A program made the translations under genes and the position numbers. Shown here piece by piece: positions 28,740-47,393 of a DNA stretch of 64,000 nucleotides (position 1 is the stretch's first letter; the number at the start of each line of letters is the position of its first letter). The DNA is from Homoserinimonas aerilata (GTDB lineage: Bacteria > Actinomycetota > Actinomycetes > Actinomycetales > Microbacteriaceae), in the NCBI RefSeq assembly GCF_006716125.1, contig NZ_VFOM01000001.1:1612001-1676000 (forward strand), in the 5' to 3' direction. The notes under the pieces are model-generated. The model did no database searches. It had not been told where the DNA came from and saw only the letters and a program-made list of their open reading frames with translations.

Positions 28740-29212
28740 CCTTCTTCCACGACGACGCGCGGAACGTGCAGGACAGGAAAGTTAACGGAGGATGCGATGA
28801 AGCATTTGCCGCTCGCCTCGCGGTGCGCATCCGTGGCGGCCTCGACCATGCCTTCGTCTGCGACGGTGACGACGGGCCGCAGGGTGACGGAGGTGAAATG
28901 CCCGCCGCCGTCGGCGGTCTGCCTCATGGTGCCGACTGCGGCATCCGCATAATCGGTGACGATGATGCCGCGACTGGCGGCGACATGCAGGTAGCTCAGC
29001 ATGTGGCACTGGCTGAGCGCCGCAAGGAGAAGCTCTTCGGGGTTCCACCGATCCGCATCACCGTGGAAGGTGCGATCAGCAGACCCCTCGATGGGATGCT
29101 TGCCGTCGGTCGACAGGGTGTGGTCGCGCCCGTAGGCGCGGTAGTCGCTGGTGCCGGTGCCCCGGTTGCCGGTCCACTGCAGGCTGACCGCATAGTTGTG
29201 TTCGAGGTTCAC
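28736..29212 (-). CDS. OsmC/Ohr family protein
   Basis: 158 residues of the OsmC fold, a family that includes thiol peroxidases reducing organic hydroperoxides. The first family cysteine is in LLLAALSQCHMLSYLH and the second in SGKCFIASS. NPEELLLAALS is the conserved central helix. The GTG at 29210-29212 lies six nt after TAGGCT (29219-29224), the recurrent leaderless-promoter arrangement. It is coupled to the FKBP gene downstream by a four-nt overlap. Confidence 0.88.
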   Translation of the reverse strand: MNLEHNYAVSLQWTGNRGTGTSDYRAYGRDHTLSTDGKHPIEGSADRTFHGDADRWNPEELLLAALSQCHMLSYLHVAASRGIIVTDYADAAVGTMRQTADGGGHFTSVTLRPVVTVADEGMVEAATDAHREASGKCFIASSVNFPVLHVPRVVVEEG

Positions 29213-29235: not shown

Positions 29236-32200
29236 CTAGAACCCCCGCGGCAGCTGGATGCGCTTGACGAGCCCCTGATCGCCCAGCAGCCATGCCCCGC
29301 CCGGCTCCCGGCCGAGGGGCGGCGGCACCAGACCCGACCCGGAGAGAGAACGGAATTCGGATGCCGTGCAGCGGTCGAAGAGCAGGGGGGACCTGCGCCG
29401 CAGGGTCGCCAGCGCCGCCCAGTGGAGCTGCCACTCCTGTGGATCGGCGACGACGATGCGGGCAGCCTGCTCAGCATCCGGGGAATTCGGCATGGCGGCG
29501 GGTACCGCATCCGGGCCTGTGACGCGGCCGGGCGCGACGTGCTCCAGGAGGACGCGTATGGCCTGTGCCCTGGTGCTGATGACGACGAGCGGCCCCTGCG
29601 CGAGCGCGCCGAACGGGCACCGCGTGGCGGAGGCGACAGGCAGCATCCGCTCTGCTTCGGGGATCCAGGCGATCTGCAGGCGCCTGCCGCGCCATTGGCC
29701 ACCACCGGGAGGCAGCTGCGGGTCGTGATCGGCGCCCTCGCCTCCGGCCATGACGTGGTCCTGCCTACTGGGCATCCGCAGAAGGATGCGCGAATCGCAC
29801 AGGCCGGAGAGCGAGTGCACCGCGGAGGTGAGGCGTCGTGCCGTCATCGCGACGCGGATGCCCCGGCCCCCGCCGTCACGCAGCAACGCCGTGAGCATCT
29901 CCATGACGAGCGGCCGCTGCGCGTCGCCGAAGCGCCCGATGAGCGCATCGACGTCGTCGACCAGCAGCACATCGGGCGCGGCGGATTCAGGAGCCGCGCC
30001 GGTGAGGCCAGCCAGGGCATCCCACGCCCCCTCGACGTCACCCGGGAGCAGCATCGCTCTCTCCCCGGCAACACCGTGCAGCGCCGCCAGGAGCGAGCTC
30101 TTGCCCGAGGACTGCCCGCCGACTGCGAGGAGGTTGCCCTCCGTCGCAGGATGCCAGGCGGCCACCGGCTGGGACTGCTCCTGCGGAAGGTCGCGCAGAC
30201 CGAACGCGAGGGCGCCCTCGGGAACCTCGGCACCGGCAGCGCGGAATGCCGGATGAGAAGCAGGCAGCACGGCGGGAAGGGGGGCCAGCCACGGCCTGCG
30301 AGCCGGCGCGGAGTCTGCCCAGCGCGCGGAGACTGCCGCGGCGTCGGCTGCTGTCGCAATGGCCAGTTGAGCGAGACGAGGCGGGCCGCCCGCGGAGCTC
30401 AGATAGGCGCGCCCGATCGGGTGCGGAGGAAGCGCCGCCGCATCCGGAACACCGATGACGGCGGTGCTGTCGGCACCGTTGTTGACGCGCAGGGAGAGCC
30501 GCAGGGTGCAGTTGGCCATGACGTTGTCGCGCAGCGCCCCCGCCGGCCTCTGCGTGCAGAGGATGAGATGGACGCCGAGCGAACGCCCCCGGGCGGCCAC
30601 GTCAGCGAAGAGCGCGTGCAGTTCGGGGAAGTCCGCGACCATGGCCGCGAACTCATCGACGACGACCACGAGCCTCGGCAACGCAGGCCTGCTGCCGGAC
30701 GCCTCCGCGGCCGCCATGAGCTCGTCGATCGACCGGGCCCCGCGACGCGCGAACACCTGCTCGCGATGGCGCAGCTCGGCGCGCAGGCTCTCGAGGGCTC
30801 GCCGCGCCGAGAACGGGTCGAGGTCTGTGATGAGGCCGACACTGTGCGGCAGGGCCTCGACCGCACCGAAGGAGGAGCCGCCCTTGAAGTCGACGAGCAG
30901 GAAGGTCACGCGCTCAGGCGGATGCGCCGCAGCCATGCCCAGCACCCAGCTGATGAGCAGCTCACTCTTTCCGCTGCCCGTCGTGCCCCCGACGATCGCA
31001 TGCGGCCCCTCTGTCACCAGGTCGAGCTGCACCGCGCCATCCGCGGACGCCGCGAACACCGCAGGCAGGCCCGTCACGGGCACGCCACCGGGCGGAGACG
31101 GATGCTCAAGGGAGGCGAACGCCACCGAGGCGGGAGGCTGCGGTGCCGCCGCCCCGAGCCCCTCAATCTGCGCCGCTTCGCGGAGCACGCTCGCGAAACG
31201 GGCCGCATCGCCCGCCGAGACCAACTCGCCGCGGAGGACGCGAGGGAAGCCAGCCGAGCCCCGCTCAGCAGATTCCATCGACGGATGCCTGAGCAGCGCG
31301 ATCTCGCCGCCCGCAACGGCCAAGCCCACACGGCAGTCGCGGGGAAGCAGCTCGACACTCTCAGCCAGCGCCACGACGATGCGCAGCCCCGCCCGATCCA
31401 GGCGATCCGCTCTCTCCCGCTGCGAGGACAGGAACTCCATACGCCCAGGCTCAGCCACGGAACCGCGATTGTGCGGCAGCGCGTGCGCCCACTCGCCGAA
31501 ACCCTCCCCGACCCGCAACTCCACGACATCCGGAGACAGCGCCGCCGCCAGCTGCATGATCAGGCCGCGCGCATACGACGATGCCGCGACGCCCCGCCCG
31601 CACACGCCGAGCCCGAGCCGGGCATCGAGCAGCACAGGGGCGTCATCGATCGTCGACGCATCCCTCCGAAGCGCCTCAACAACCTCAGTCGCCGCAGCCG
31701 GAAGCTGCCCACTGCCATCCTGTCCGCCGCTCAGGGTGATTCCGCTGGGCAGCGTGCCGCGGCCCACGAGCACCGGCAGCGGGCCCGAATCGTGGCGCCA
31801 TCGCTCAGGGTCGTGCACATGCGCCGCGAGAAGCCCCCGCGGCGACCGCACCGCAGCCGAGAGCCCGACGACGACCGCTTCCTTTGCCCCGGCGATCTGC
31901 TCGCGGGTGCCCTCCGCGTCGAGAAGGAAACGCGCGAGCTCGCGTCGGCTCGTACGTCGGGCCTGGAGGCGCGAATCGACGAGACTGCCGATGGCGATCA
32001 CGGGCCCCAGCACAGCGAACATGAGGGCGAACGGCGAGTGGGTGATCGCCCACATCGCGAGCGAGACGACAACGGGGGCGAGCGTCGCAACGATCGGAAA
32101 ACGGAACGGCGGTGTCGTCTCGATGCCGCGCGGGAGCGGGATCGAGATGCCACCGCCCGAGTCGAGGCCCACGGCACCGGCGCCCACCATCGCAGGCGAT

Positions 32201-32301
32201 CGTTCGGAAAGGGGTCTGGCCAACTGAGAGGAGATCGTCACGAGACAAGCCCACAGCATCGGGAGCTCACGACACAGCAGCGGCAGGCGAACTGTGGACA
32301 C
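29236..32301 (-). CDS. FtsK/SpoIIIE (EccC-like) tandem-ATPase membrane protein
   Basis: About 1021 residues; the GTG start is uncertain, as several in-frame alternatives lie within the next 40 codons. Two membrane helices (roughly residues 70-110) precede an FtsK/SpoIIIE ATPase with Walker A GGTTGSGKS (~437) and Walker B LVVVVDEFAA (~545), then a second P-loop domain with GGQSSGKSS (~732) and VLLVDDVDA (~780). This layout resembles EccC, the motor of type VII secretion, which has three such domains. No WXG100 substrate or other Ecc gene is present nearby. It is the last gene of the kinase operon, 34 nt after the zinc-ribbon/FHA gene. It may move a protein or act on DNA; this is unresolved. 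Confidence 0.85.
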   Translation of the reverse strand: MSTVRLPLLCRELPMLWACLVTISSQLARPLSERSPAMVGAGAVGLDSGGGISIPLPRGIETTPPFRFPIVATLAPVVVSLAMWAITHSPFALMFAVLGPVIAIGSLVDSRLQARRTSRRELARFLLDAEGTREQIAGAKEAVVVGLSAAVRSPRGLLAAHVHDPERWRHDSGPLPVLVGRGTLPSGITLSGGQDGSGQLPAAATEVVEALRRDASTIDDAPVLLDARLGLGVCGRGVAASSYARGLIMQLAAALSPDVVELRVGEGFGEWAHALPHNRGSVAEPGRMEFLSSQRERADRLDRAGLRIVVALAESVELLPRDCRVGLAVAGGEIALLRHPSMESAERGSAGFPRVLRGELVSAGDAARFASVLREAAQIEGLGAAAPQPPASVAFASLEHPSPPGGVPVTGLPAVFAASADGAVQLDLVTEGPHAIVGGTTGSGKSELLISWVLGMAAAHPPERVTFLLVDFKGGSSFGAVEALPHSVGLITDLDPFSARRALESLRAELRHREQVFARRGARSIDELMAAAEASGSRPALPRLVVVVDEFAAMVADFPELHALFADVAARGRSLGVHLILCTQRPAGALRDNVMANCTLRLSLRVNNGADSTAVIGVPDAAALPPHPIGRAYLSSAGGPPRLAQLAIATAADAAAVSARWADSAPARRPWLAPLPAVLPASHPAFRAAGAEVPEGALAFGLRDLPQEQSQPVAAWHPATEGNLLAVGGQSSGKSSLLAALHGVAGERAMLLPGDVEGAWDALAGLTGAAPESAAPDVLLVDDVDALIGRFGDAQRPLVMEMLTALLRDGGGRGIRVAMTARRLTSAVHSLSGLCDSRILLRMPSRQDHVMAGGEGADHDPQLPPGGGQWRGRRLQIAWIPEAERMLPVASATRCPFGALAQGPLVVISTRAQAIRVLLEHVAPGRVTGPDAVPAAMPNSPDAEQAARIVVADPQEWQLHWAALATLRRRSPLLFDRCTASEFRSLSGSGLVPPPLGREPGGAWLLGDQGLVKRIQLPRGF

Positions 32302-32335
32302 TTTGCTCAGTGACTGCCCCGCGCGGAGGGGACGA

Positions 32336-33496
32336 TCAGCTGACGATGAAGAACTGCTCGCCGATCTCGACCCTGCTGCCCCGCACCACGCTGTAGCGTC
32401 GCTCGGCCTCGCAGCGCTGCGGCTCCGACTCGGGCGCGCGGACGATCGTGCCGTTGCCCGAGAAACGATCCTTCACCCAGAAAACACCGCCCTGCTGGCC
32501 GAACTCGAGGTGCGTCTTCGACACGGAGCGGCCCGTGTCGAGCACGCGCACGAGCTGGTCGAAAACCTCACCCGGCTCGGGCCGCGGGTTGCGACCAATG
32601 AGGCCCGTGCCGTACACCGTCACACTCTCGCCCGTACTGAACTGCAACACGAAACGTTCGGCACCCCTCCGGCGCACGATGCGCGTCTCCTCGAGGTCAG
32701 CGGCGAGATCGTCAGTAACCTCTGGCGTACTGAGAGGCACGGATGCTCGGGCAGGCTTCGTCTGCGGCGGCGGGATGAGCGCCTCCGGCAGCATCGGAAC
32801 GGGCAGGCCGGGCGCCGGCAGGAGCGGAACAGCGGCGGCCGCCGGGGGCTCCGGCGCGATCAGCCCGACAGGCGGGAGGAACGGAACGGAGGGCGACGGC
32901 GGCAGGGGCGCTATCGACTCACCATCGGAATCATCAGCCCCAGGATCGACCTCGGCAGGCGCATCCGCCATCTCATCGTCCATCTCATCGGCCGCGCCGC
33001 GCACCGGGGGCTCCGAGATCGAGGGAGCCGAAGGGATCCGCTCGATGGGCATCGTGAACGCCTGCGTCACAGCGCGCGACACGAAGCCGCATTCGCCGCA
33101 GAAGATGTCGCCGGGGCCCAGCAGGTTGCCGCACTGCTCGCAGCGCAGCGGCCAGACGGCCGTGCCGGCGGGGGCGTCGTCGGAGCTTTCGGGCGAGGCA
33201 TCCGACACTGCCGGCTCCGGCTCGCCCGTGAGATCCAGTTCGTCGTCGAAGTCGCTCAGTACCCAGGAGCTCGAGCCGGCGGGTGAGCCCGGCACGACAG
33301 GGGCCGGATGCGCACGCTCAGCAGGAGGAGGGGCGATGAACGGCTGCGAGTCATCAGGGCGGATGCTGCGGGAGGCGGGGCCCGTCTCCTCATCGGCCGG
33401 ATGCCCGCCAGCAGGGCCAGCCTCGATGCGACGGCCGCATTCCCCACAGAAGAGCGCCCCGCGCGGCAGTCTCGTACCGCAATGACTGCAATTCAT
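32336..33496 (-). CDS. double zinc-ribbon protein with C-terminal FHA domain
   Basis: 386 residues. Two CxxC...CxxC ribbons are visible: CSHCGTRLPRGALFCGECG at residue 3 and CEQCGNLLGPGDIFCGECG near residue 120. A long acidic/Pro-rich linker follows. The C-terminal FHA domain (residues ~280-385) carries LIGRNPRPEPG, SVSKTHLEF and DRFSGNGT and should bind phosphothreonine. Just before it lies LEETRIVRRR with Thr271, placed like the regulatory phosphothreonine of mycobacterial GarA. Its ATG overlaps the transglutaminase-like stop by four nt. It is a likely reader of the operon's kinase. Confidence 0.88.
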   Translation of the reverse strand: MNCSHCGTRLPRGALFCGECGRRIEAGPAGGHPADEETGPASRSIRPDDSQPFIAPPPAERAHPAPVVPGSPAGSSSWVLSDFDDELDLTGEPEPAVSDASPESSDDAPAGTAVWPLRCEQCGNLLGPGDIFCGECGFVSRAVTQAFTMPIERIPSAPSISEPPVRGAADEMDDEMADAPAEVDPGADDSDGESIAPLPPSPSVPFLPPVGLIAPEPPAAAAVPLLPAPGLPVPMLPEALIPPPQTKPARASVPLSTPEVTDDLAADLEETRIVRRRGAERFVLQFSTGESVTVYGTGLIGRNPRPEPGEVFDQLVRVLDTGRSVSKTHLEFGQQGGVFWVKDRFSGNGTIVRAPESEPQRCEAERRYSVVRGSRVEIGEQFFIVS

Positions 33497-35823
33497 GGGA
33501 GCCGTCTCTCTCGTGCGAACAACTCCTTGACACTATATCCACCGAGAGATCGGAGCGAGACGAGTGCCTTGAGCCGCTGCCAGCGGGTGCGCCCCTCCCC
33601 GAGGCCGGCGCCCAGTTCCCGCACCGCCGTCCACACCTGGATGGCCTCTTCCTCCCTGACCTGCTCGGGAGCGAAGGTGGCACGATCGGCGACGGATGCG
33701 AGCACGAGTGGCTGGATGCCGCCCACCGTCTCCGCCACCTCACTGCGGGTCGGCGACGCCGGCGGCGTGTAGCCGTAGTCGATGATGGCATCCTCGAATT
33801 CCCGCCAGCCCCCGCTGATCCGCTGGGCCGGACTCGACGCCCTCTGCCGCAGGTGACGTCGCCTCAGCTTCGCGGCGACGATCGCGATGAACGGCGAGAG
33901 CAGCACCGCGATCACAAGCAGCGTCACCCCCAGCCCGACGAGGGCCGCCAGCAGGATGGCGAGGAAGGGGTCTTCGACGGGGTCCTCCTCCTGCGAGCTG
34001 TCGAGCGGGATCTGGTCGGTGTTGCCGTCGGGCTCCGTCGCCCGGGGCGGCACGGGGGTCTGCGGGCGGGCCACCTGGGCGGGCTCCTCCGGTTCGGCCA
34101 ACGGGATCTCGCGGACTGGCGGCGTCGGGTCGACCGCAACCCAGCCCTGCCGCAGCGTGTTGACCTCGATCCAGGCGGAAGCATCCGAGCCTCGCACGAC
34201 GGTCGCATCGCCTGCCGACGAGACAGAGTCGGGAACGAAGCCGACGACGACCCGCGAGGGAAATCCGATGGCCCTGGCCATGAGCGCCGCCGTCACGGCG
34301 TACTGCTCCTGGTCGCCGATCATGATCGGATCGGTCAGCAGTTGCGCGATCCGATCCGCCCCGTGGCCGGATCGACTCGGCGGCTCGTCCGCTCCACCGT
34401 GACTGATGTAGCCCTCCGTGGCGATGCCTGCGAGCATCGCGCGCAGCCGCTCGCCCGGTGTCGTCGCATCCCGCACCCAGCCGTCGAGGGTCACCGCGAG
34501 ATCGTCGGGCACGGCGCTCGCCACGGGCACTGTCGCGGTTCCCGGCGCGAGAGAGGCGAGCTGCGAGTCGGCGACCATCGGAGTGACGACAGCGTCGAGC
34601 TCATAGCCGCTGCCTTCGCCGAGCCCGTCGAGCGCAACGGCGGTGCCGCTCACGTCGTTGTAGAAGAACGAGTTCTTCAGCCCCGAGGCATCCGCCCCGA
34701 CGAAGTCGATCGTCTGCAGCTTTCCTGCCGTGGGCACCCAGATGCCCTTGTAGCCGGTGATGACGATGTCGAGTGTGACGTGCTCCCCGTCGATCGCAGA
34801 CTGGTCGATGCTCGTCGGAACCCGAGTGAACGAGCCAGACTCGCTGCTCGTCTGCTCGCTCCCGACCGAGAACACGACACCGTTGTAGGTGTCGAGCGTC
34901 GCGATGCGCAGCCGCCCTCCCTCAGGAAGGCCGCTTGCGGTGAGCATGGCGGCATCGGCCGTGCCGGGCTGCAGGTACCGTCTGAACGCACTGAGGGGGC
35001 TCGCATATTCCTGCGGGTCGAACGGCCGCTCGACGGTGTCGCGCAGCACGACGCGCTCCCTGCTCGGCGGGGCCAGGCTGACGGCGGCCGAGCCGGTGCC
35101 GACGGCGATGGCGAGAATGACGACGGCGGATGCGACGGCACGAATCCCGCCGGAGCGCTCCGCGGTCTCGAGGGGGGCGGCGCCGGTTCCGGGCGTCGTC
35201 GCAGCGAGCGCCCTGATGGCATCCCGTCTGCGCTGCCACCGCCACCAGGCGAGCGTGCCGAGCACGGCGACGAGAAAGCCCAGCACGAGCGGCATGGCGA
35301 AGGGGAGCTCCTTCGGGCCGAAGAGCAGGCCGACCAGAAGCACGGCGCTCGGAAACAGGGCCGAGAGTTCGCCGAATCGCGCTCGCAATGCTGTGGAGAG
35401 TCCGCCGACTGTGGCGACGAGGATGAGCAGGAACGCCGGGACCAGCAGTCCCTGGTACGTGCCCACGGGCAGCGTTATCGTGAGCAGCTGCTTCCAGCCG
35501 AGCGCCGCTCCCGTGACCAGCTCGAGCAGGCCGTCGAGCGTGGGAAGCACGCCGTAGAGCGCGAGCTCTGGAACGGCGAAGGGAACGCCGAACACGGCGA
35601 AGACGATGAGCGTCAGAAGGAGAACCACAGGGCTCGGCCACCGGAAGACGGCACCGAGCAGAGCAATCGCGCTGCCCAGCACGATCGTTCCGACCGCCAT
35701 GATGATGAACTGCGGATGCTCATAGATCGGCCAGAATGCGGTGACCGCGATGGCCAGGCCCACCCAGAACGTCGCCGTCGCCACGACGACGAACGCAGCC
35801 CTCTGCCGTCTCGGCCGCCTCAT
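33493..35823 (-). CDS. transglutaminase-like membrane protein with degenerate catalytic triad
   Basis: 776 residues from an ATG that overlaps the DUF58 stop by four nt. About seven membrane helices occupy residues 8-255 including one near 235-255, an extracytoplasmic domain follows, and a further helix lies near 630-650 with a cytoplasmic tail. The transglutaminase core is recognisable: GDQEQYAVTAALMARAIGFP, SDASAWIEV, VDPTPP. Where active enzymes have Cys it has Gln505 and where they have His it has Ser549; only Asp565 remains. It therefore cannot be a classical cysteine transglutaminase or protease. MoxR-DUF58-transglutaminase neighbours are a common trio. It may be a binding or structural partner of the large surface protein. 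Confidence 0.88.
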   Translation of the reverse strand: MRRPRRQRAAFVVVATATFWVGLAIAVTAFWPIYEHPQFIIMAVGTIVLGSAIALLGAVFRWPSPVVLLLTLIVFAVFGVPFAVPELALYGVLPTLDGLLELVTGAALGWKQLLTITLPVGTYQGLLVPAFLLILVATVGGLSTALRARFGELSALFPSAVLLVGLLFGPKELPFAMPLVLGFLVAVLGTLAWWRWQRRRDAIRALAATTPGTGAAPLETAERSGGIRAVASAVVILAIAVGTGSAAVSLAPPSRERVVLRDTVERPFDPQEYASPLSAFRRYLQPGTADAAMLTASGLPEGGRLRIATLDTYNGVVFSVGSEQTSSESGSFTRVPTSIDQSAIDGEHVTLDIVITGYKGIWVPTAGKLQTIDFVGADASGLKNSFFYNDVSGTAVALDGLGEGSGYELDAVVTPMVADSQLASLAPGTATVPVASAVPDDLAVTLDGWVRDATTPGERLRAMLAGIATEGYISHGGADEPPSRSGHGADRIAQLLTDPIMIGDQEQYAVTAALMARAIGFPSRVVVGFVPDSVSSAGDATVVRGSDASAWIEVNTLRQGWVAVDPTPPVREIPLAEPEEPAQVARPQTPVPPRATEPDGNTDQIPLDSSQEEDPVEDPFLAILLAALVGLGVTLLVIAVLLSPFIAIVAAKLRRRHLRQRASSPAQRISGGWREFEDAIIDYGYTPPASPTRSEVAETVGGIQPLVLASVADRATFAPEQVREEEAIQVWTAVRELGAGLGEGRTRWQRLKALVSLRSLGGYSVKELFARERRLP

Positions 35824-37262: not shown

Positions 37263-37297
37263 AGCGCCTTCTCGGTCATGAAGGGCCGTTCGGTCAT
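37259..37297 (-). other. 12-codon mini-ORF coupled to the DUF58 start
   Basis: ATG at 37295-37297 opens MTERPFMTEKAL, whose TGA overlaps the GTG of the DUF58 gene (GTGA). The gap holds three near-copies of TGACCG(A/G), the first at the moxR stop codon, so the mini-ORF may have arisen by local duplication. It could couple DUF58 translation to moxR. Coding status is not proven. Confidence 0.3.
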
Positions 37298-37310
37298 GCG
37301 TTCCGTCCGG

Positions 37311-38282
<972 letters not shown>

Positions 38283-38316
38283 TCGTTCGTCTCTCCTGAT
38301 CGGTAGTTCATTCGTC

Positions 38317-41300
38317 TCAGCCGCCCGGCGTCGCCCCCGGGGTGGCCCCGGGCGGCGGTGTCGGTGTCGGTTCCGGTGTCGGTTCCGGGGTCGGCTCAGG
38401 TGTCGGTTCCGGTGCCGGCTGGCACTGGGTCTGACCCCATTGTGGGTCCTGATACACCGAAGTGCCGGCAGTGACTGTCGCCTTGATGCGGACTCCCGAG
38501 GCGGTGAGCGGGACTGTCTCGCCCTCATGCCACGTATGGAAGACGCCGGAGTAGACGCCCAGCAGGCCGTAGTCGACCGCGTAACCGACGGTGATCTTCG
38601 GAGATCCGTTGTTGTTCGGCGGAGCAGCAATGAAGGGCTGCCCGGCCAGGCAGCTGGGAACGGATGCCCGCGTCGCCACGGGCGTCGCCGTCAGGGTCAC
38701 GGAGGGCCCGCAGAAGTCGGTGCTGGTGTCCCGGCAGCCGCGCACCTGCAGTGACACGGGCGTGCCGTAGACCGCGCTGTTGGCCGCAGAAGTGACGAAT
38801 CCGGAGGTGGGAACGGCCTGCCATGCTGCGGAGCCCAGACGGTATTCGTAGCGTGTGGCGACGCCGGATACGACGCCGAGGCCGCCGATGCGCACGTCCC
38901 AGTTGCCGGACGACTGGTGTTGGACCGTGGGAAACTCGGGATCGACGGTCGCCTTTCCGGGCGCCTTCCGGCTCTCGACCTGGCCGGAGACCGCCACCGA
39001 GCAGAAGTAGCCATTGTCGGAATAGACGGCGTAGACGTATTTTCCGCCGTCGGCGGCGTCGGTGTCGATCCAGCCGCTTGCCGTGGCTCCCGCGATCGCA
39101 CCGGGCTTGCTCCCCGTCTCACAGGATGCGGGAATTTCGCCGCCCGCGGCGAAGCGCGCGATGCTGTAGCTTCCGGTTGCTGCGCCGTTCCAGGTCGAGG
39201 CGCCCGTCCAGGAGACCTGGATTCGGCCATCCGATCCGAGAAGCACGCCGCCGAGGCCCGTGACGGGGGTCGGATGTCCGACAGCACGGACGATCGCCAC
39301 CCCTGACCTGTTCCACCCCTCGGCGTCGACCTGCGCCGAGTTCATGGCAACGACAGTCACCTGGTATTCCTCGCCAGGCTGGATCAGCCCGTCCGCCGTC
39401 GTCTGCAGGCGACTCGCCCCCCTGCCCACCGGGATGTCCCGCTGGCCGACACCCGGTCCGACGATGCGCACGGTGTACCCGGCGACCTCCGTTCCGGGAT
39501 TCGGATCGGCGACAGGGGTCCAGGAGATGACGATCTCGCCGGGCCTTCCTGTGGACGGCACCGCGTTGACGCCGGTCGGAGCGGCCGGGAGATAGTCCGC
39601 TCGAAGCGGCTGGCTCGCCATTCCCGGCGCCGATGAGCCGATCGAGTTGCTCGCGATGACGCTGAACTCGTACACGGCCCCGATTGTCAGGTCGTCGAGC
39701 CTGCACAGCTGCTGCGTGCCGCAGTCCTTGCGGTAGTCCCCCGCGCTGCTGACAATCTCGTAGCGTGTGATCGGCGAGTTGTTGAAGGCCGGCGGCGTGA
39801 TCCTGAGGGTGATGGCGCCATTCGTGTGGCCCTCGGTCTTGACGGGCGCGATGGGCGCATCCGGAACATCCTGCACCGAGATCGTGACCCTGCCCCAGAC
39901 GTAACGATCCGGGTCGCCCGTCGCGTCCGCGACCTGGTACTGGAGCTGCGTGTCTGCAGGAACGGCATTGGATGCCACCGCGACGGAGAGCCTGCTCCTG
40001 TCGGTGCTCGGCACGATGGTGACGCCGTCGGGCAGTGCGCCTCCGTCGATACCGCGGATCGCGACGACCGTGAGCGGCTTATTCGGGAAGGGGTTGGTCG
40101 CGCTGTCGTTGCTGAGCACGTCGATGACGGTCGACGAGCCCCTGGGAGTGACCGAAGCGTCGGGCGCCGGCCTCGCGAGAGGTCTCGTGGAGGCGACGAC
40201 GCGCAGCGCGATCGTGCCCGCTCGGCCTTCGCTGAGGTCATCCCTCACACCGAGCGCGATCGTCGTCTCGGAGCCCTTGACCGTGCCGACATCGGCCTTC
40301 AGGGTCAGCGTGCTCCCCCGCAGCGTGTAGCTGAAGCCCGTCGGCAATGGTTCGAGGACCCGGTAGGCGAGCTCGTCGAGGTCGTCGGGGTACGGGTAGC
40401 TCGTGAGCCTGAGCAGGTCGAGCTCCTTCTCCTCGCCCGGCTCGAACTCGATGCTGCCACCGGTGAAGGCCGGCGGCTGGTTCTCGCGGGGCGTCACCGT
40501 TATGGGCAGCACGAGCGTCGCCGTGTGCGCCCCCGGCTCATCCGCATTCGCACCATCCGTGACCTCGAACGAGATCGAGGCAGGCCCGAAGTACCTGTCG
40601 GCAGAGGTGAAGACGAGGGTGTCGGAGTCAAGAACCAGGCTGTCACCGTTCGAGTGCGTGGCCCGCACGGTCGTGGTGTCGGTGAGCCGCACCTTCCGCC
40701 CGCCGACGGCGACGACATGGTCGTTGATGTCGATCCTCAGCTGCGACTCGCTGGCGACCGTCAGCCGTGGCGCGCGGCGGTCGAGCTGCGGGAGCGCGTC
40801 GTCGTGACCGGGCACCCGGATGAAGGCGTACGAGACCACCTGCGCGTCGTCGGGGTGCACGATCGCGAAGGGGATGATCTGGCTCCTGTCGCCGATCTGC
40901 ACCGTCACCCGCTTGTCGCGCTCGACGGTGGCGGATGCCCGATAGCCGTCGAGCAGGCGGATGCCGAGACTCGAGACCGGTCCGTCGGCGAAGAACACCC
41001 GCTCGAGCACGTCGATCGTGATGGAGTCGCGGTCGAGGATGTCCGACAGCGTGAGTACGGTGTCGGATGCGATCGGATACGCGAGCGGCGCATCCGGGTC
41101 GACGACGACGGTCACGAAGTTGGAGCTGCTCCCTCCGAACTCGTTCTCGATCGTGTACACGAGCCCGTAGCGGCCCGCGAGAGCCGGCGGGGTCACCTCG
41201 ACGACCTCGCCCACGATCTCCGCGCTCGTCTCGGCGTCGTTGGGCTCGACGGAGACGACGCTGAGTGCGCTGCCGTCCGGGTCGGAGTCGTTCAGCAGAA

Positions 41301-44274
41301 CCTGGACCCGCACCGCGCCGCCGGGCCTCGTGACGACCTCGTCGGCGGTCGCCACAGGGTTGCGGGCGCCCTCGATGGGCGGGCTGATGCCCACGCGCAC
41401 CCGGCCGGTCGCTCGGGCGCCGAGCGCGTCGATGACGGTATAGCTGAAGCTGTCGGTTCCTGCCGAGTAGCCGCCCGCCTCGTATTCGATGAAGTCGCTG
41501 CCGACCTCGGTGACGGCGCCCTTCTCCGGGTTGCTCTCCTGCCCGAGCAGTTGCACCGAGTCGCCGTCGGGGTCGATGCCGCTGAGTGGGATGCGGATGC
41601 TCACCCGTTCACCCGCAACGACCCGTGCAACCGTGGTCACCGGCGCGGGCGGATTGTTGGTGGCCTCGACGGCCTCACGCACGGCGATCCGCACCTGCGC
41701 CTGCGCCGCCTGCCCGTCGGGCCCGAATATCTCGTAGACGGCCGTGAAGTTTCCGGTCTGGTTCGACGCGAGATAGCGCAGCTTGTTTCCGGATGCGAAC
41801 AGCAGGCCGGCCCCGCTCTTCACCTTCGCCGAGAGCACCGGGTTGAGTTTCAGTTCCTCGCCGTCGGGGTGCAGGTCGTTCGCCAGCACCGGGATGTCGA
41901 TGGTGTCGCCGACGCGAACCGTGATGCTGTCGTCGGTCGCGACGGGCGCCTGCAGTTGCTCCGGCTGCGCGATCTCGATGACGGTGACGAGACCCTCCGC
42001 CTCGGCCAGGCCGTTGGTCACGCGATAGCCGAACGACACCGGCCCGGAGTCGAGCGGCGCGACAAGGGTAATTCGGATCGACTTCTGGTCGAGAACATCG
42101 GCGCGCACTCCCGCCGCAGGGTCGAGCCCCGTCAGACCCGTGACCATCAGCACGCCGCCGGCGGGGTCACTGTCGGTGAGGGTGACGTCGATCGTCTCGC
42201 TGCTCAGCGTCTTGACGAAGACCGTCTTGGGGATCGTGACCGGCTTGCTGCTCGCATCCGGTGGCGTCTCGACGTCGATGCGCACGAGACCCGTCACCGT
42301 CTGCGAGCCATCGGTGACGACATATTCGGCGTAGAAGCTGCGAACCTGGGTGCTCGAGAAGCGGAAGGTGCCCCTGTCGTAGTTGGGCACGATCGTCGCC
42401 CCCGTCTTGGCGGGCACCCCCGTGAGCCTGAGCGTGCCAGAGCCACCGCGCACATGATCGAGCGGCGACACACGAACCTCACTGCCCGCGTACGCTCGCA
42501 CCACGAAGGGGTCGGCGATGAGCGGCACCTCGCCCTGAGGGCTGACCGTGATCGACAGACTGCCGGATGCCTCCGCCATTCCGTCGGAGACCTGCAGCGC
42601 GACGGAGCGAAGCGAACCGGCCGCGCCGCCCTCCTGGAAGACCACGGCCCCCTCCGGCTTGTGGCTGACCAGATCCGGGCTCGCCGTCGTCGCCGATGTC
42701 AGGTAGAAGGCGTCGCCATCCGGGTCGATCCAGTCGCCGAGCACATTGCTGGTGACGCGCCCGCTCTCGGCGACGAGCGTGCGGCTACGACGCAGCTGTA
42801 CGGGCGCGGAGTTCTCGGCAGGGCTGCGCACCGTCACCGTCACCGTCGTCGAAGCGGAACCACCACGACCGTCGGTCACCGTGTAGCCGAAACCGAACGA
42901 GCCGGATGCCGTGTCAGCGAGTGTGAGCTGAATCTCCTGCCGGTCGCGCACCAGCTCGAGACGGCCGAGCTCCTCGTCGATCTCGGTGACCTCAGAAATG
43001 ACGAGCACGTCGCCGTTCGGGTCGTAGTCATTCAGGAGGACAGGCAGAACTGTCGCGCGGCCGGGCCGGGCGCCGAAGTCATCGGCCACCGCGACCGGCG
43101 GCATCTGCACCTTCTCGTATTCGGGCACGCTGTCGACGTCGTTCTGCTGAACCTGCTGCTGGTCCTCCTCGACCGTGATCAGCTCGTCCCAGTTGTCGAT
43201 CGACTCGCCACCCTGCTGCACCGCCCAGGTGGCACCGGTGGCGGGCTCGTTGAGCAGAACCCTGTCGCCGTTCATGGCGAAGGCGAGACGAGCTCCGGAT
43301 GTTCCGCCGAGTTCGAGAGTCACGGGAGCCTGCCCGGGGCAGTCACGCCAGGCGGTCCCGTCTCCCCAGGCCGCGTACGTGCATCCGTCAAGCACCACCG
43401 GCTGGGCGACGGCGCTGCTGCGGCCCTCGAGAAGCCTCACCGGGTCGGAGCCGTCGAGCGGCACGGAGAGCAGACCGCTCGTGTAGGCGATCACGACGGC
43501 GCTCGCGTCGGGTCCGGGCTGCTGCAGCACGGGGCTCTGGCCTGCATCGATCAGCCCGTCGAGCGGCACGAGCTCGCCGTCGATCCAGGCGTGCCGGGAG
43601 GAGCTGTCGAAGAGGATGACATGATCGCCCACCGCGGTCAGCTGCACACCGGCGCCGGTGTCGCCGAAGGCGAGTTGCTGCGTCTGGGTTCCCGAGCCGA
43701 CCCCAAGAGCGTAGAGCTGGCCCGTATCGGGCGAGTAGGCGTGGATGACTCCGTCGACCCCCACCGCGAGCGTCGAATTGCGGCCGAGGCTGAGTGTCGC
43801 CTCCCCTGAGACGTCGAAGGAGGAGAGATCCTGAGCGGGCATCATCCACACCTCGCCGGTGCCCTCGGCATGGATGACAGCGCTGTCGCCCGCGAGATAC
43901 ACCTTCGGAGACTCGGTGGGCAGTGCGGCGCTGTCGAGCACCTCAGACGTCGCCGGGTCGACGATGTCGACGCGCGTGTTCGCCAGGTCAAGCAGAAGCA
44001 CTGTCTCGCCGCGCTGCACGACATCGAGATCACTGCCGGCGCTCTGCACGACCGTGTTGAGCTGCATGATCTCGGTGTTTGCGCGCCCGATGACCTGGCT
44101 TTCGCCGTTCGCCACCCAGACGGATGCGTCACCCAGGTCGAGCCGTTGCGCCCGGTAGCCGCCCGACGCGACGGCGACGGCGGCGATGAGCGCCACGATG
44201 ACGACAATGCTGCCCGTCGTCATGGCCAGCGATCTGTGGCCGAGTATCCAGCGCCAGGTCTTCGAGAACGTCAT
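38317..44274 (-). CDS. giant membrane-anchored Ig-like/cadherin-like and FN3 surface protein
   Basis: 1985 residues from an ATG overlapping the kinase stop by four nt. One membrane helix (~18-40) follows a short cytoplasmic N-terminus. Residues ~45-375 look like a beta-propeller-type region. Then come about eleven ~95-residue Ig/cadherin-like repeats, several with PVLxND.DPDGD (examples VLPVLLNDYDPNGD, IDIPVLANDLHPDGE), three or four FN3-like domains (LPAAPTGVNAVP; SWTP), and a Pro-Thr tail of PEPT repeats ending GATPGATPGG. There is no LPXTG signal or second helix. The protein would reach from the membrane through the cell wall. It corresponds in position to the FN3 gene of the bifidobacterial PFNA cluster; ligand unknown. 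Confidence 0.9.
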   Translation of the reverse strand: MTFSKTWRWILGHRSLAMTTGSIVVIVALIAAVAVASGGYRAQRLDLGDASVWVANGESQVIGRANTEIMQLNTVVQSAGSDLDVVQRGETVLLLDLANTRVDIVDPATSEVLDSAALPTESPKVYLAGDSAVIHAEGTGEVWMMPAQDLSSFDVSGEATLSLGRNSTLAVGVDGVIHAYSPDTGQLYALGVGSGTQTQQLAFGDTGAGVQLTAVGDHVILFDSSSRHAWIDGELVPLDGLIDAGQSPVLQQPGPDASAVVIAYTSGLLSVPLDGSDPVRLLEGRSSAVAQPVVLDGCTYAAWGDGTAWRDCPGQAPVTLELGGTSGARLAFAMNGDRVLLNEPATGATWAVQQGGESIDNWDELITVEEDQQQVQQNDVDSVPEYEKVQMPPVAVADDFGARPGRATVLPVLLNDYDPNGDVLVISEVTEIDEELGRLELVRDRQEIQLTLADTASGSFGFGYTVTDGRGGSASTTVTVTVRSPAENSAPVQLRRSRTLVAESGRVTSNVLGDWIDPDGDAFYLTSATTASPDLVSHKPEGAVVFQEGGAAGSLRSVALQVSDGMAEASGSLSITVSPQGEVPLIADPFVVRAYAGSEVRVSPLDHVRGGSGTLRLTGVPAKTGATIVPNYDRGTFRFSSTQVRSFYAEYVVTDGSQTVTGLVRIDVETPPDASSKPVTIPKTVFVKTLSSETIDVTLTDSDPAGGVLMVTGLTGLDPAAGVRADVLDQKSIRITLVAPLDSGPVSFGYRVTNGLAEAEGLVTVIEIAQPEQLQAPVATDDSITVRVGDTIDIPVLANDLHPDGEELKLNPVLSAKVKSGAGLLFASGNKLRYLASNQTGNFTAVYEIFGPDGQAAQAQVRIAVREAVEATNNPPAPVTTVARVVAGERVSIRIPLSGIDPDGDSVQLLGQESNPEKGAVTEVGSDFIEYEAGGYSAGTDSFSYTVIDALGARATGRVRVGISPPIEGARNPVATADEVVTRPGGAVRVQVLLNDSDPDGSALSVVSVEPNDAETSAEIVGEVVEVTPPALAGRYGLVYTIENEFGGSSSNFVTVVVDPDAPLAYPIASDTVLTLSDILDRDSITIDVLERVFFADGPVSSLGIRLLDGYRASATVERDKRVTVQIGDRSQIIPFAIVHPDDAQVVSYAFIRVPGHDDALPQLDRRAPRLTVASESQLRIDINDHVVAVGGRKVRLTDTTTVRATHSNGDSLVLDSDTLVFTSADRYFGPASISFEVTDGANADEPGAHTATLVLPITVTPRENQPPAFTGGSIEFEPGEEKELDLLRLTSYPYPDDLDELAYRVLEPLPTGFSYTLRGSTLTLKADVGTVKGSETTIALGVRDDLSEGRAGTIALRVVASTRPLARPAPDASVTPRGSSTVIDVLSNDSATNPFPNKPLTVVAIRGIDGGALPDGVTIVPSTDRSRLSVAVASNAVPADTQLQYQVADATGDPDRYVWGRVTISVQDVPDAPIAPVKTEGHTNGAITLRITPPAFNNSPITRYEIVSSAGDYRKDCGTQQLCRLDDLTIGAVYEFSVIASNSIGSSAPGMASQPLRADYLPAAPTGVNAVPSTGRPGEIVISWTPVADPNPGTEVAGYTVRIVGPGVGQRDIPVGRGASRLQTTADGLIQPGEEYQVTVVAMNSAQVDAEGWNRSGVAIVRAVGHPTPVTGLGGVLLGSDGRIQVSWTGASTWNGAATGSYSIARFAAGGEIPASCETGSKPGAIAGATASGWIDTDAADGGKYVYAVYSDNGYFCSVAVSGQVESRKAPGKATVDPEFPTVQHQSSGNWDVRIGGLGVVSGVATRYEYRLGSAAWQAVPTSGFVTSAANSAVYGTPVSLQVRGCRDTSTDFCGPSVTLTATPVATRASVPSCLAGQPFIAAPPNNNGSPKITVGYAVDYGLLGVYSGVFHTWHEGETVPLTASGVRIKATVTAGTSVYQDPQWGQTQCQPAPEPTPEPTPEPTPEPTPTPPPGATPGATPGG
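38340..38415 (-). repeat. tandem 12-bp repeats encoding the PEPT tail
   Basis: Degenerate 12-bp units related to GGTTCCGGTGTC repeat about five times and encode the (Glu-Pro-Thr-Pro) C-terminal tail of the surface protein. Such a tract can change length by slippage without shifting the frame. Confidence 0.7.
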
Positions 44275-45677
44275 GGCAGGAACGATGCGCACTTCTGGTT
44301 GCTGAGCGGGCCGTTCACTCCTGCACGGTTGACCGAGACCGTAATGCACACGAGATCACCGGGGTTGCCGTCAACGGCGAAACGCGGCGCCCGCTGGATG
44401 CTGCGCTCACCGTCTGCCGTCTCGATCTGGTAGGAGTCGCCATCCTGCAGGCCCGGATCGGGCCAGTTGAACTCCATCCGGCCCTGCCGCTCATCGGCCT
44501 GGATGTCGGTGACGGTGGGGATCGAGGAGGTGTTCGTCTTGATGAGCACATAGGTTGCCGTCGCGGCGAGCGCGATCACCAGAACGGCGGATGCCACGAG
44601 GATCCAGGCGAGCGTCTGCATCCGCCCGCTCGGGGGCGTGGGCGCCGCGGTGCCGGTGCTGCTGCGCGGCCCTCCGTCGTCGAGGCGCGGGGTCACGGTT
44701 GAGGCTGTTCCCCGCCTGCGCCGCCGTCCGGGCGAATCAGGAACGGCGGCAAGCCCTCGCACCCGCGTGCGATCCTCCAGATCGGAGACAGTGGCGAGCG
44801 CCCAGTCATCCATGGCGACCTCGATGGGCGTCTGCGGCAGGCCGAGTTCTGACTCGATCGCCTGGAACTCGTGCACGAGTTCCAGCACCGAGCCCGGCCG
44901 GTGCTCAGGATTGCGCGACATGCCACGCCTGAGCGCCTCCTCAAGCCCGCGCGGCACATCGGAGCGCCCGATCGGCTGCACCTTGCCCTTGCTGATGCGC
45001 CCGATCAGGTCGGCCGACTTGTTCGACTGCCCCGCCAGCTCGAACGGCGAGCGCCCCGCCAGCAGCGAATACACGGTTGCGGAGAACGACCACACCTCGG
45101 CGGCGATGGAGCCGGAGCTCTCATCGAGCAGCACCTCGGGAGCCGACCACGGGATCGACATCCCCACAGCATCCTGCGATTGCGTTCCGCCGAGGGTCGA
45201 GGCGATACCGAAATCGGAGAGAACCGGATGCCCGTAGGCGGTCAGCAGGATGTTCGACGGCTTGATGTCGCGGTGCAGAACGCCGGCACGGTGCGCCGTC
45301 TCGATGGCGCTGCCGATACGCACGGCGATGCGCAGAACCTCGGCGACGGGGATGCGCTCGCGCCGGTAACGCTCACTGAGCGCTGAGGAACACATCTCCA
45401 TGACCAGATACGGCCGGCCATCCGAGGAGACGCTCGCCTGGTAGACCGTGAGGATCGACGGATGCGAGCTGAGCTGCGCCATGAGATTGGCCTCGGCCTG
45501 GAACATCTGACGCACATGATCGTTGACGACCTCGCTGAGCAGAACCTTCACCGCCACCTGGCGGCGCGGCATGTTCTGCTCGAAGAGGAAGACATCGGCG
45601 AAGCCGCCGGAACCGAGGATGTGCATGTGACTGAAGCCGGGCAGCACGGGCGGCTGAGACGGCAAGCGTCGCGCCAT
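44271..45677 (-). CDS. transmembrane serine/threonine protein kinase with FN3-like ectodomain
   Basis: 468 residues. The Hanks-type kinase domain is complete: GSGGFADVF, VAVKV, HRDIKPSN (~135), DFGIA (~157), SAPEVLL and an EVWSFSATVYSLLAG helix F region. A juxtamembrane stretch contains LEDRTRVRG and TASTVTPR, possible autophosphorylation sites. One helix (~352-378) leads to an ~85-residue ectodomain with an FN3-like strand pattern and two cysteines (DLVCITV, NQKCASF) that may form a disulfide. PASTA repeats are absent. It matches the Pkb2 kinase position of the bifidobacterial PFNA cluster and should phosphorylate the FHA proteins and others in the operon. Confidence 0.93.
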   Translation of the reverse strand: MARRLPSQPPVLPGFSHMHILGSGGFADVFLFEQNMPRRQVAVKVLLSEVVNDHVRQMFQAEANLMAQLSSHPSILTVYQASVSSDGRPYLVMEMCSSALSERYRRERIPVAEVLRIAVRIGSAIETAHRAGVLHRDIKPSNILLTAYGHPVLSDFGIASTLGGTQSQDAVGMSIPWSAPEVLLDESSGSIAAEVWSFSATVYSLLAGRSPFELAGQSNKSADLIGRISKGKVQPIGRSDVPRGLEEALRRGMSRNPEHRPGSVLELVHEFQAIESELGLPQTPIEVAMDDWALATVSDLEDRTRVRGLAAVPDSPGRRRRRGTASTVTPRLDDGGPRSSTGTAAPTPPSGRMQTLAWILVASAVLVIALAATATYVLIKTNTSSIPTVTDIQADERQGRMEFNWPDPGLQDGDSYQIETADGERSIQRAPRFAVDGNPGDLVCITVSVNRAGVNGPLSNQKCASFLP

Positions 45678-45771
45678 TTCTGCCCCCTAAGCCGATTCGA
45701 TCGTCATCTCACCCGCGAGCGACCGCTCCGTCATTGTCGGCGATCGCTTCGCTCTCGTGGTGCGAATAATC

Positions 45772-45777
45772 ATTGTA
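45772..45777 (-). promoter_or_regulatory. candidate internal promoter -10 before the kinase gene
   Basis: On the minus strand TACAAT, close to the -10 consensus, lies 95 nt upstream of the kinase ATG. The hexamer 17 nt further upstream (GGAAAG) is a poor -35. It would let the kinase and the genes downstream be transcribed separately from the FHA/phosphatase pair. Confidence 0.35.
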
Positions 45778-45830
45778 GGCCAGCAGCTATCGGGCTTTCC
45801 GGGCAGAACTCCCGATCAGCGCACGCATTC

Positions 45831-45847
45831 ACCCCCCGTTCGGGGGT
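45831..45847 (-). terminator. hairpin at the PP2C stop codon
   Basis: A six-bp G/C stem (ACCCCC/GGGGGT) with a five-nt loop overlaps the phosphatase stop codon. No T-run follows, so it is at best a weak terminator or an RNA-processing element between the phosphatase and kinase genes. Confidence 0.35.
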
Positions 45848-46770
45848 CAGGTGTTCGGCTCCTCCTGGTGCTCGGCGCCAGACGCCGGGCGACGGGGAAT
45901 GGTGTCCCCCTCCTCGTCGGCCTCCTCATCACTGTCAGCCTGAGCGTCGTCCGCGACGTTCGCCGACTCCGCCCCCGGCTCAGGCTGCGGCGCCGCGACA
46001 ACCTCGATGACGACGACCGTCACATTGTCGCGGCCCCCCGCATCCAGTGCTCGCAGCACGAGCTCCTCTGCGACCTGCGCGACGGTGCCGTCGCCGCAGA
46101 GGATCTCACGGATGCGTGCAGAGTCGAGCTCCTTGCTGAGACCGTCGGAGCACAGCAGCAGACGCATTCCGGTGCGCAGGGGCAGCAACCAGTAGTCGGG
46201 AACCGCATCCGCGTTGAAGCCGACGGCCCGCGTGATGATGTTGCTGTCCGGGTGGTGCTCGGCGGCCTCAGCCGTGATCATCCCCGCGTCGACCAGCTCC
46301 TGCACGACCGAATGATCGACCGTGACCTGACTCAGCTCTCCGCCCTCCGCGAGGTACACGCGCGAGTCGCCCACATTGAACACCGACCAGAACGGCTGGC
46401 CGTCGATGACCCTGAGGCTCGCCCCCGTCGCGGTCGTGCCGACGCCGAGGTGGGCCTCATCCGCGACACGCGTGATGTCCTTGGTCGCCTTCCTGAGCGC
46501 CCGCTCGATGACATCCTCCTCGGCGAAGTCGCCCGTCGCCGCCTCGGCGATGCGCGTCACAACGGCATCGCTCGCCAGGTCTCCGGCCGAATGCCCGCCC
46601 ATGCCGTCGGCGACGGCGAAGAGGGGAGGGCTCACGACATAGCTGTCCTCGTTGTGCTGACGTCGGTGGCCCGTGTCCGTCTCTGCAGCCCAGGCAAGCT
46701 CGATGACCTCGCCGTCCCTGCCGGGCAGGGCCACGCTGTGGCCTGTGGTGTTCTCGCCGATCGCCGTCAC
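45847..46770 (-). CDS. PP2C-family serine/threonine phosphatase
   Basis: 307 residues. The metal-binding motifs HNEDSY, FAVADGMGGH (residues 51-60), NVGDSRVYL, LLLCSDGL and GRDNVTVVV are all intact, so it should be an active Mn/Mg-dependent phosphatase that reverses the operon's kinase. An acidic tail (~260-307) has no counterpart in the core enzyme and carries GDTIPRRP around Thr290, similar to motifs in the FHA partner. The GTG start overlaps the FHA gene stop as GTGA. It has no membrane helix. Confidence 0.94.
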   Translation of the reverse strand: MTAIGENTTGHSVALPGRDGEVIELAWAAETDTGHRRQHNEDSYVVSPPLFAVADGMGGHSAGDLASDAVVTRIAEAATGDFAEEDVIERALRKATKDITRVADEAHLGVGTTATGASLRVIDGQPFWSVFNVGDSRVYLAEGGELSQVTVDHSVVQELVDAGMITAEAAEHHPDSNIITRAVGFNADAVPDYWLLPLRTGMRLLLCSDGLSKELDSARIREILCGDGTVAQVAEELVLRALDAGGRDNVTVVVIEVVAAPQPEPGAESANVADDAQADSDEEADEEGDTIPRRPASGAEHQEEPNT

Positions 46771-47393
46771 AGTGTCGGCCTCTCATTCATGGTGACCGCG
46801 CTCGACGGCCATCCGGTGATCTGTACTGGCAGGATCTCGATCCGGTTCCCGTCACCGATGTCGATGACCGATCCGGGTGTCGCCACGATCGACTCGCCCG
46901 GCCGCAGCTTACGCGGGAGCGACCCCGGCAGCACCACGACGGTGCCATTGGTGGAACGGTAATCGGTGACCACGACCGAGGAGCCCTTCTGGCGCAGCTC
47001 CAGGTGGGTGCCCGAGACCTCCTGCAACGGCGACGGCACCCGCACGAGGCGCGGACGCGCCACAAGGGGGACGCGCGGCAGGCTCGGGCGACGACCGATC
47101 AACGCCGGGCGGTCGAGCCCGATCGGCTCATGGCTGTTCACGGTGAAGCGATACCAGTTCGGCACGATGGGCGGCGGCTCGGGCGGAGCCTCGACCAGCG
47201 CGGGCGGCTCCACCGGGGGCGGTTCCAGCGCGGGCGGCGCCAGCACAGGCGGCTGCTCCGCCGCGATCGTGCGCGGCAGCGTCGATCCGGGCGCCTGGCG
47301 CGGTCGGATGACGGTGTCGTCGTCGAGCAGCGCACGCACGCCCTCTTCACCCCTCGCGGGGCGGATGATGGTGTCCTCTGTGTCGTGCTCCAC
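46767..47393 (-). CDS. FHA domain protein with tandem DT(I/V)IRP motifs
   Basis: 208 residues. The FHA domain in the second half shows ALIGRRPS, VSGTHLEL and DYRSTNGT, a phosphothreonine-binding fold. The N-terminal tail carries EDTIIRP (residues 6-12) and DDTVIRP (25-31), each an acidic-Thr-hydrophobic motif suited to phosphorylation, and then a Pro-rich linker. The GTG lies six nt after TAGGCT (47400-47405), indicating a leaderless transcript and making this the promoter-proximal gene of the operon. It probably links the kinase to downstream partners. Confidence 0.9.
   Translation of the reverse strand: MEHDTEDTIIRPARGEEGVRALLDDDTVIRPRQAPGSTLPRTIAAEQPPVLAPPALEPPPVEPPALVEAPPEPPPIVPNWYRFTVNSHEPIGLDRPALIGRRPSLPRVPLVARPRLVRVPSPLQEVSGTHLELRQKGSSVVVTDYRSTNGTVVVLPGSLPRKLRPGESIVATPGSVIDIGDGNRIEILPVQITGWPSSAVTMNERPTL

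Follow-up and report, generated by a model that had tools for sequence, protein, structure and literature searches.

A nine-gene kinase and Ig-protein operon of Homoserinimonas aerilata as a possible Esx-less sibling of a type VII secretion cluster

The PFNA operon of bifidobacteria is described as pkb2-fn3-aaa-atp-duf58-tgm, with prpC, a gene for a hypothetical protein and fha in some species (PMC8430577, PMC6803598), and has been compared with the mycobacterial moxR operon (PMC12067865). Cytokine binding, i.e., recognition of a host signal, is an experimental property of the FN3 protein of B. longum. T7SSd, a subtype of the type VII secretion system (T7SS), consists of TsdA, C, D, H and I, and its loci combine a kinase, the Ig-like TsdI, the FHA-bearing TsdC and a WXG100 protein (Garrett, Higginson and Palmer, 2024; PMC11217815); the words MoxR, DUF58 and transglutaminase do not occur in the main text of that paper. 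Here we analyze a 64-kb stretch of DNA (the window; C1:1612001-1676000) from the 2.84-Mb, six-contig genome of Homoserinimonas aerilata, in which nine co-directional genes on the minus strand occupy positions 29236-47393 in the order FHA, PP2C, Ser/Thr kinase, Ig/FN3 protein, MoxR, DUF58, transglutaminase-like protein (TGM), zinc-ribbon FHA protein (ZnFHA) and FtsK/EccC-type ATPase. This order and the domain content had been proposed in an earlier note made from the sequence alone, and were borne out by the listing of open reading frames, translation and Pfam/NCBIfam scans. We read the operon as an Esx-less sibling of a T7SS cluster, with the ATPase as a PP2C-linked accessory motor and an Ig protein exported by Sec, and put the probability of this reading at about 0.55.

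The key to this reading is a paralogous cluster in the same genome (cluster 2; C1:628263-654036), in which PP2C, FHA, kinase, FHA, a 1855-amino-acid (aa) Ig protein, MoxR, DUF58, TGM and a 1501-aa motor follow one another. The motor carries an FHA domain and three ATPase domains, and is followed by an 88-aa protein matching EspC (E 1.5e-4) and WXG100 (E 9e-4), both below cut-off, by another small protein, which has a W-x-G motif and is not matched by Pfam, and by further small genes, the last of which encodes an FHA protein. All nine operon proteins have a blastp match in cluster 2, with identities of 43% for PP2C, 48% for the kinase, 34% for the Ig protein, 59% for MoxR and 35% each for DUF58 and TGM; the motors are 33% identical over ATPase domains D1-D2, and the two operon FHA proteins match via their FHA regions (40% over 103 residues and 35% over 115 residues). 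Because every operon protein pairs with cluster 2, the operon is read as a sibling of a T7SS cluster. The earlier note had seen a PFNA module extended by a motor; homology between the module and PFNA stands, as shown below, and the extension is not needed, because the existence of cluster 2 means that the motor fits an older layout of module plus T7SS. Cluster 2 may be a T7SSd or an undescribed subtype. Homology searches here and below used tblastn and phmmer with operon and cluster 2 queries; an absence means none at that sensitivity in the stretch concerned, and the genomes are samples, not censuses.

The operon, all on the minus strand, begins with an FHA-domain protein of 208 aa (46767..47393; Pfam FHA E 9.6e-6), which has a counterpart in cluster 2, and a PP2C-type Ser/Thr phosphatase of 307 aa (45847..46770; PP2C_2, and 213 bits with the Stp1 model, whose cut-off is 230). 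These are followed by a membrane Ser/Thr kinase of 468 aa (44271..45677; Pkinase E 4e-40) with visible HRD and DFG motifs, and by the Ig/FN3 surface protein of 1985 aa (38317..44274, ATG at 44274), with six Big_9, two fn3 and cadherin-like domains; hydropathy gives the latter a single transmembrane (TM) segment, which is N-terminal, and none at the C-terminus. Next come a MoxR-family AAA+ ATPase of 323 aa (37311..38282; AAA_3 E 8.6e-62, plus lid), a DUF58 protein (35820..37262; DUF58 E 6e-10) of uncertain start, e.g., 37262 or 37088, the TGM, a TgpA_N/Transglut_core membrane protein by Pfam with 776 aa (33493..35823) in which the catalytic Cys and His are replaced, and ZnFHA, a protein of 386 aa with two zinc ribbons and an FHA domain (32336..33496). 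The last gene encodes a reduced EccC/EssC-type ATPase of at most 1021 aa (29236..32301), hereafter the short motor, again of uncertain start (candidates from 32301 downwards). Inspection of start codons gives 4-nt overlaps at four of the eight junctions (FHA/PP2C, kinase/Ig, DUF58/TGM and TGM/ZnFHA), one fewer than had been claimed; an extra one, OsmC/FKBP at 28736-28739, lies outside the nine genes. The gaps are 169 nt (PP2C/kinase), 34 nt (Ig/MoxR), at least 48 nt (MoxR/DUF58) and at least 34 nt (ZnFHA/short motor), and two terminator-like sites were found, both outside the intergenic gaps of the operon. Pfam detected none of the other known T7SSa/b membrane components among the nine genes, and no search for them was made elsewhere.

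The short motor is closer to EccC/EssC than to the FtsK DNA translocase in a similarity test, and its best structure match is T. curvata EccC; domain scans and this match uphold the assignment of the FtsK-like gene to the type VII kind, while its scores with the NCBIfam equivalog models do not reach their curated cut-offs. Two TM helices and a D0-like region accompany D1 (residues 409-660; 30322..31077, minus strand), in which the Walker A Lys and the Walker B Asp-Glu are present in 100% of 41 orthologues. D2 (residues about 684-884; 29650..30252, minus strand) is degenerate, with the Walker A Lys in 63% of the 41, and is shortened in comparison with the 1501-aa motor of cluster 2. D3 (residues about 899-1021; 29239..29607, minus strand) is vestigial in the same alignment: the first half of the P-loop region is gapped in 93-100% of the orthologues, the remainder is without the G-K/R-S consensus, and the Walker B columns are gapped in 98-100%. 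Of the tandem ATPase that had been expected, one domain is intact in the 41 orthologues, while the second is degenerate and the third vestigial. Residues 1-215 of the full-length motor, i.e., its FHA end, have next to no counterpart in the short motor, and a separate ZnFHA gene adjoins it. Thus, the two TM helices, the D0-like region and the D1 fold are common to the short motor, EccC of T7SSa/ESX and EssC of T7SSb, but the short motor has about 1000 residues against 1300-1500, its D2 is degenerate and its D3 lacks a P-loop consensus. The D3 domain of EccC binds the Esx signal. Judged from its sequence, the short motor appears to be an eroded EccC/EssC with one sure ATPase domain. Trimming from a T7SS, rather than building towards one, is favored because of this truncation, and not from a rooted tree.

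The nearest described system is T7SSd, which resembles the operon in having a membrane Ser/Thr kinase, a very large Ig-like surface protein, an EssC/EccC-type ATPase and a link between FHA domains and phosphorylation; the operon kinase is a counterpart of the TsdD membrane kinase by domain, rather than by comparison with the TsdD sequence. Important differences of the operon from T7SSd are that it has no WXG100 gene, that its ATPase is without FHA and is eroded in D2 and D3, and that its Ig protein has only the N-terminal TM segment according to hydropathy, whereas TsdI has a C-terminal TM helix. In addition, PP2C, FHA, MoxR, DUF58 and TGM are extra to T7SSd. TsdH of T7SSd is a small protein with a single TM segment. 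Since both a WXG100 gene and an FHA domain on the motor are lacking, we have not filed the operon as a T7SS.

Two observations on cluster 2 are added here. Among the small genes downstream of its motor is one for a protein with a GPP34 (Golgi phosphoprotein 3-like) domain (L019:14093-14812, E 9.8e-15). Residues 1-90 of the motor (L019:7150-7420), preceding the FHA domain, are predicted to form a strand-strand-helix-strands arrangement like that of a ubiquitin-type beta-grasp, and could be a ubiquitin-like domain fused to the N-terminus of the motor; for T7SSd loci no ubiquitin-like protein is reported in PMC11217815.

No match to WXG100 (PF06013), the family of EsxA and TsxA, was found in the 64-kb window, with a model that can miss weak members, in agreement with the earlier statement that no Esx substrate is nearby. 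The genome's only Pfam WXG100 match lies outside the window, and the weak WXG100-like gene of cluster 2 was not listed, so the sensitivity of this search is limited. That the short ATPase still works as a minimal exporter of the type VII kind, with the Ig protein or an unlinked WXG100 protein as its substrate, is hardly probable. In its favor are the intact D1, the presence of exactly one WXG100 gene in 20/20 genomes chosen for a short motor and few other matches, and a groEL piece at 21 of the 30 top-scoring WXG100 loci, some of which come from genomes lacking a strong EccC-type match. Against it, D3 is vestigial, an N-terminal TM segment is present on the Ig protein itself, and the bifidobacterial homologue has no motor in view in its cluster. 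Furthermore, one or more WXG100 genes were found in 11/15 genomes with an absent or weak EccC-type match, which argues that these genes are independent of the EccC-type motor, and a pairing of the motor with an orphan Esx substrate was rejected on this ground. The orphan WXG100 protein of H. aerilata (C1:105737-106078; L130:7738-8079) adjoins groEL and a two-component system.

For comparison with PFNA, Bifidobacterium loci were taken from the best 80 of 311 qualifying loci, 41 of which are labelled Bifidobacterium (L226-L266). The order kinase-Ig/FN3-MoxR-DUF58-TGM was found in 39 of these (contig ends truncate the remaining two), and agrees with the published PFNA layout (PMC8430577). No motor is in view in the 39 loci, the views of which stop at or just past TGM. 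Eight loci of the family f43, which includes B. callitrichidarum and B. pseudolongum, reach 2-5 kb further, and have a PP2C match in four, FHA in four (two on the opposite strand) and a motor in none; the N-terminal profile of the Ig protein (A1) matches 19/19 genomes of this family. The operon and PFNA therefore share five core genes, identically ordered and co-directional, a homologous Ig/FN3 N-terminal domain, PP2C and FHA genes and a TGM without the catalytic Cys, and the proposed homology of the operon module with PFNA is confirmed by gene order, N-terminal profile and alignment. In PFNA, however, PP2C and FHA come after TGM, whereas in the operon FHA and PP2C stand in front and ZnFHA and the short motor come last; PFNA listings include no zinc-ribbon FHA and no EccC-type ATPase. 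Bifidobacteriaceae also have proteins of 575-684 aa with a single EccC-type D1 domain (L156-L162). A PFNA with its own motor was rejected, as in the seven genomes compared the D1-like proteins are at least 290 kb off (three) or on another contig (four).

In PFNA papers, TGM has been named a putative transglutaminase or a presumed cysteine protease. The structure of TgpA (6g49) aligns with the operon TGM at E 3.4e-9, and places its "GFC" Cys opposite Gln and its "DAHAW" His opposite Ser. We take this Cys and this His to be the catalytic residues of TgpA. Among 68 module TGMs, the Cys column has Cys in 0/68 and the His column His in 6/68; among 64 TGMs from named loci (39 Bifidobacterium and 25 others), which overlap the former set in at least three loci (L211/L226, L207/L253 and L218/L278), the numbers are 0/64 and 10/64. 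MoxR-DUF58-TgpA triads have the same gene order and domain content as the operon, but the module TGM differs from TgpA in that the core Cys and, mostly, the His are replaced. The missing catalytic Cys appears to be a new observation, and the PFNA "transglutaminase" is unlikely to be a Cys-dependent enzyme.

Within Microbacteriaceae, 199 genomes were surveyed, with at most four motor candidates and at most five TGM candidates scored per genome. The short motor was found in 124/199 at E 4.6e-77 or better, and in at least 75 of these 124 a TGM homologue lies within 4.4 kb upstream on the same strand, as counted with one row per genome and after exclusion of weaker rows (G052, G146 and 1500-1700-aa motors). 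We then compared 20 loci in which motor and TGM are adjacent, 20 in which they are apart and 20 having TGM without an adjacent short motor. Among the adjacent loci, which were chosen for closeness of FtsK and TGM, 18/20 (L089-L106) have the full order FHA-PP2C-kinase-Ig-MoxR-DUF58-TGM-ZnFHA-motor, and the remaining two have diverged or cut versions of it; the same order is found in loci labelled "Leifsonia sp. SCN 70-46" (L300) and "Microbacteriaceae bacterium" (L299). Because it is kept in 18/20 relatives, albeit in a set picked for closeness, the nine-gene order is not due to chance. In the apart loci, PP2C is upstream of the motor in 18/20, accompanied by ZnFHA in five and FHA in three, and two of the 20 (L060 and L061) adjoin a diverged module. 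Conservation of the FtsK-like gene beside the module, on which the earlier note depended, thus holds in at least 75/124 genomes and fails in 18/20 apart loci, which keep PP2C and not the rest. Three family genomes (L108, L060 and L061) have a diverged module and a short motor, with weak similarity of Ig and TGM.

Three genes flanking the operon on the same (minus) strand are also near the motor in relatives: upstream, a gene (47435..48433) that we take to be aldo/keto-reductase-like (AKR), and downstream, an OsmC-like gene (28736-29212) and a gene (27759-28739) whose product is presumably an FKBP-type lipoprotein. AKR, OsmC and FKBP matches flank the PP2C-motor pair in the operon's order in 13/20 apart loci, and OsmC and FKBP matches are present, irrespective of their position relative to the module, in 11/20 no-motor loci. 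This persistence of the flanks suggests a single ancestral site that was vacated by the module in some lineages and by the motor in others. It also bears on a different explanation, in which PP2C and the short ATPase work together as a separate pair that only happens to occupy the ancestral site, and kinase-Ig-MoxR-DUF58-TGM is an independent neighbor. Such a pair, seen closely spaced in the 18 apart loci, apparently remained in place after departure of the module, OsmC and FKBP are found in no-motor loci too, and the TGM match is absent or weak in 7/124 short-motor genomes (G014, G089, G091, G105, G145, G156 and G189). We consider this explanation rather unlikely, given the closeness of motor and TGM in at least 75/124 genomes and the linkage of the full-length motor to the same module in other families. 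In two genomes (G137 and G149) the module is present with only FtsK-level matches among the four scored candidates each (E 1.3e-14 and 9.4e-16), and for this reason the module seems not to need an EccC-type motor. The motor often accompanies the module, which can do without it.

Beyond the family, strong short-motor matches (E 1e-92 or better) are all from Microbacteriaceae among the matches listed for a 296-genome class sample, and full-length FHA-EssC-type motors occur in many families of a 396-genome order sample. The Ig profile A1 matches 57/79 chosen genomes, and a distance of at most 25 kb separates it from the full-length motor in 22 of 28 genomes that carry one (exceptions, G505, G511, G529, G533, G798 and G821). 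In 4/4 controls (G002, G175, G131 and G195), a WXG100 gene above the Pfam cut-off is next to or within 4 kb of the full motor. Layouts vary: one locus (L223) has a single run of Ig-MoxR-DUF58-TGM-FHA-PP2C-FHA-kinase-FHA-motor, five Georgenia/Oceanitalea loci (L277, L283, L284, L288 and L294) have the motor directly after TGM, and five others (L214, L215, L222, L224 and L225) have the module without a motor within the viewed stretch. In an alignment, invariant W, C and G columns are common to PFNA, T7SS-linked and operon Ig proteins. These results, together with cluster 2, show that the module, i.e., a phospho-switch made up of kinase, PP2C and two FHA proteins, an Ig/FN3 protein of about 2000 residues and the trio MoxR/DUF58/pseudo-transglutaminase, runs with a full motor and WXG100-like genes elsewhere. 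Four Arthrobacter/Micrococcaceae loci (L292, L297, L272 and L280) have two large tandem Ig proteins, without module or motor in the viewed stretch.

A tree of MoxR, DUF58 and TGM was made by quick search with 52 rows, unrooted, and with 14 named loci and two loci without MoxR left out. Bifidobacterium forms one clade (support 100), and operon-type and no-motor modules of Microbacteriaceae are mixed in another (support 100), which also includes three loci of the family f45, among them a single T7SS-linked one. Motor adjacency switches several times in this tree, and T7SS-linked modules are scattered. In a quick tree of D1 (83 rows), full-length and other motors form a set (support 99), with short motors, one long-branched other motor (L116) and true FtsK on the opposite side; the branch of true FtsK is about 8 changes per column, and rooting by FtsK failed. 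The full-length motor of a Bifidobacteriaceae locus (L166) is outside the main motor clade. Both trees support a labile pairing of motor and module, without fixing the direction of change. A gain of an EccC-type ATPase by a PFNA-type module in Microbacteriaceae, instead of loss from a T7SS ancestor, would agree with the restriction of strong short-motor matches to the family in the class sample and with the module tree, which does not nest the operon's clade inside a T7SS-linked clade. Since the short motor looks like a truncated full-length architecture with a vestigial D3, and the same module adjoins a full motor in several families, we regard such a gain as very unlikely. The economical reading is that, in this bacterial order, the module is a part of T7SS-type clusters that can also exist on its own.

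What the proteins do is inferred throughout. In the Esx-less sibling that we prefer, the module would build and gate a wall-spanning Ig-protein complex: the kinase would sense the envelope, the FHA proteins would read its marks and PP2C would erase them, while MoxR may load or remodel the Ig complex, and DUF58 and the catalytically dead TGM may serve as a membrane scaffold. The short motor, in which only D1 is a sure ATPase and D3 is vestigial, would no longer export Esx and would act on the envelope complex as a PP2C-linked accessory, and the Ig protein would reach the surface by Sec. Motor-driven assembly or export of an adhesin, as first suggested, is not supported, because the motor is a dispensable partner, as seen in G137, G149 and the Bifidobacterium homologue without a motor in view, and because the Ig protein is itself equipped with an N-terminal TM segment.

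No publication joining the PFNA operon with T7SS diversity was found among those covered, which include few subscription papers and no supplements; PMC8191103, which is outside this set, has the words type VII secretion once, MoxR twice and DUF58 once. We tentatively propose, as a possibility on the doubtful side, an undescribed T7SS subtype of the Actinomycetales in which the module supplies the envelope and gating half. PFNA and the operon would then represent this half, which has persisted in the absence of Esx export and has been put to new use as a phospho-gated machine for surface signaling, and the bifidobacterial FN3 protein would descend from a T7SS envelope component. This would link two lines studied separately, the PFNA operon as a host-cytokine sensor and T7SS diversity. 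If it is true, MoxR, DUF58 and the dead transglutaminase would become candidate T7SS envelope factors, DUF58 would gain a testable role, and the bifidobacterial FN3 protein would be worth studying as a relative of a secretion-channel component.

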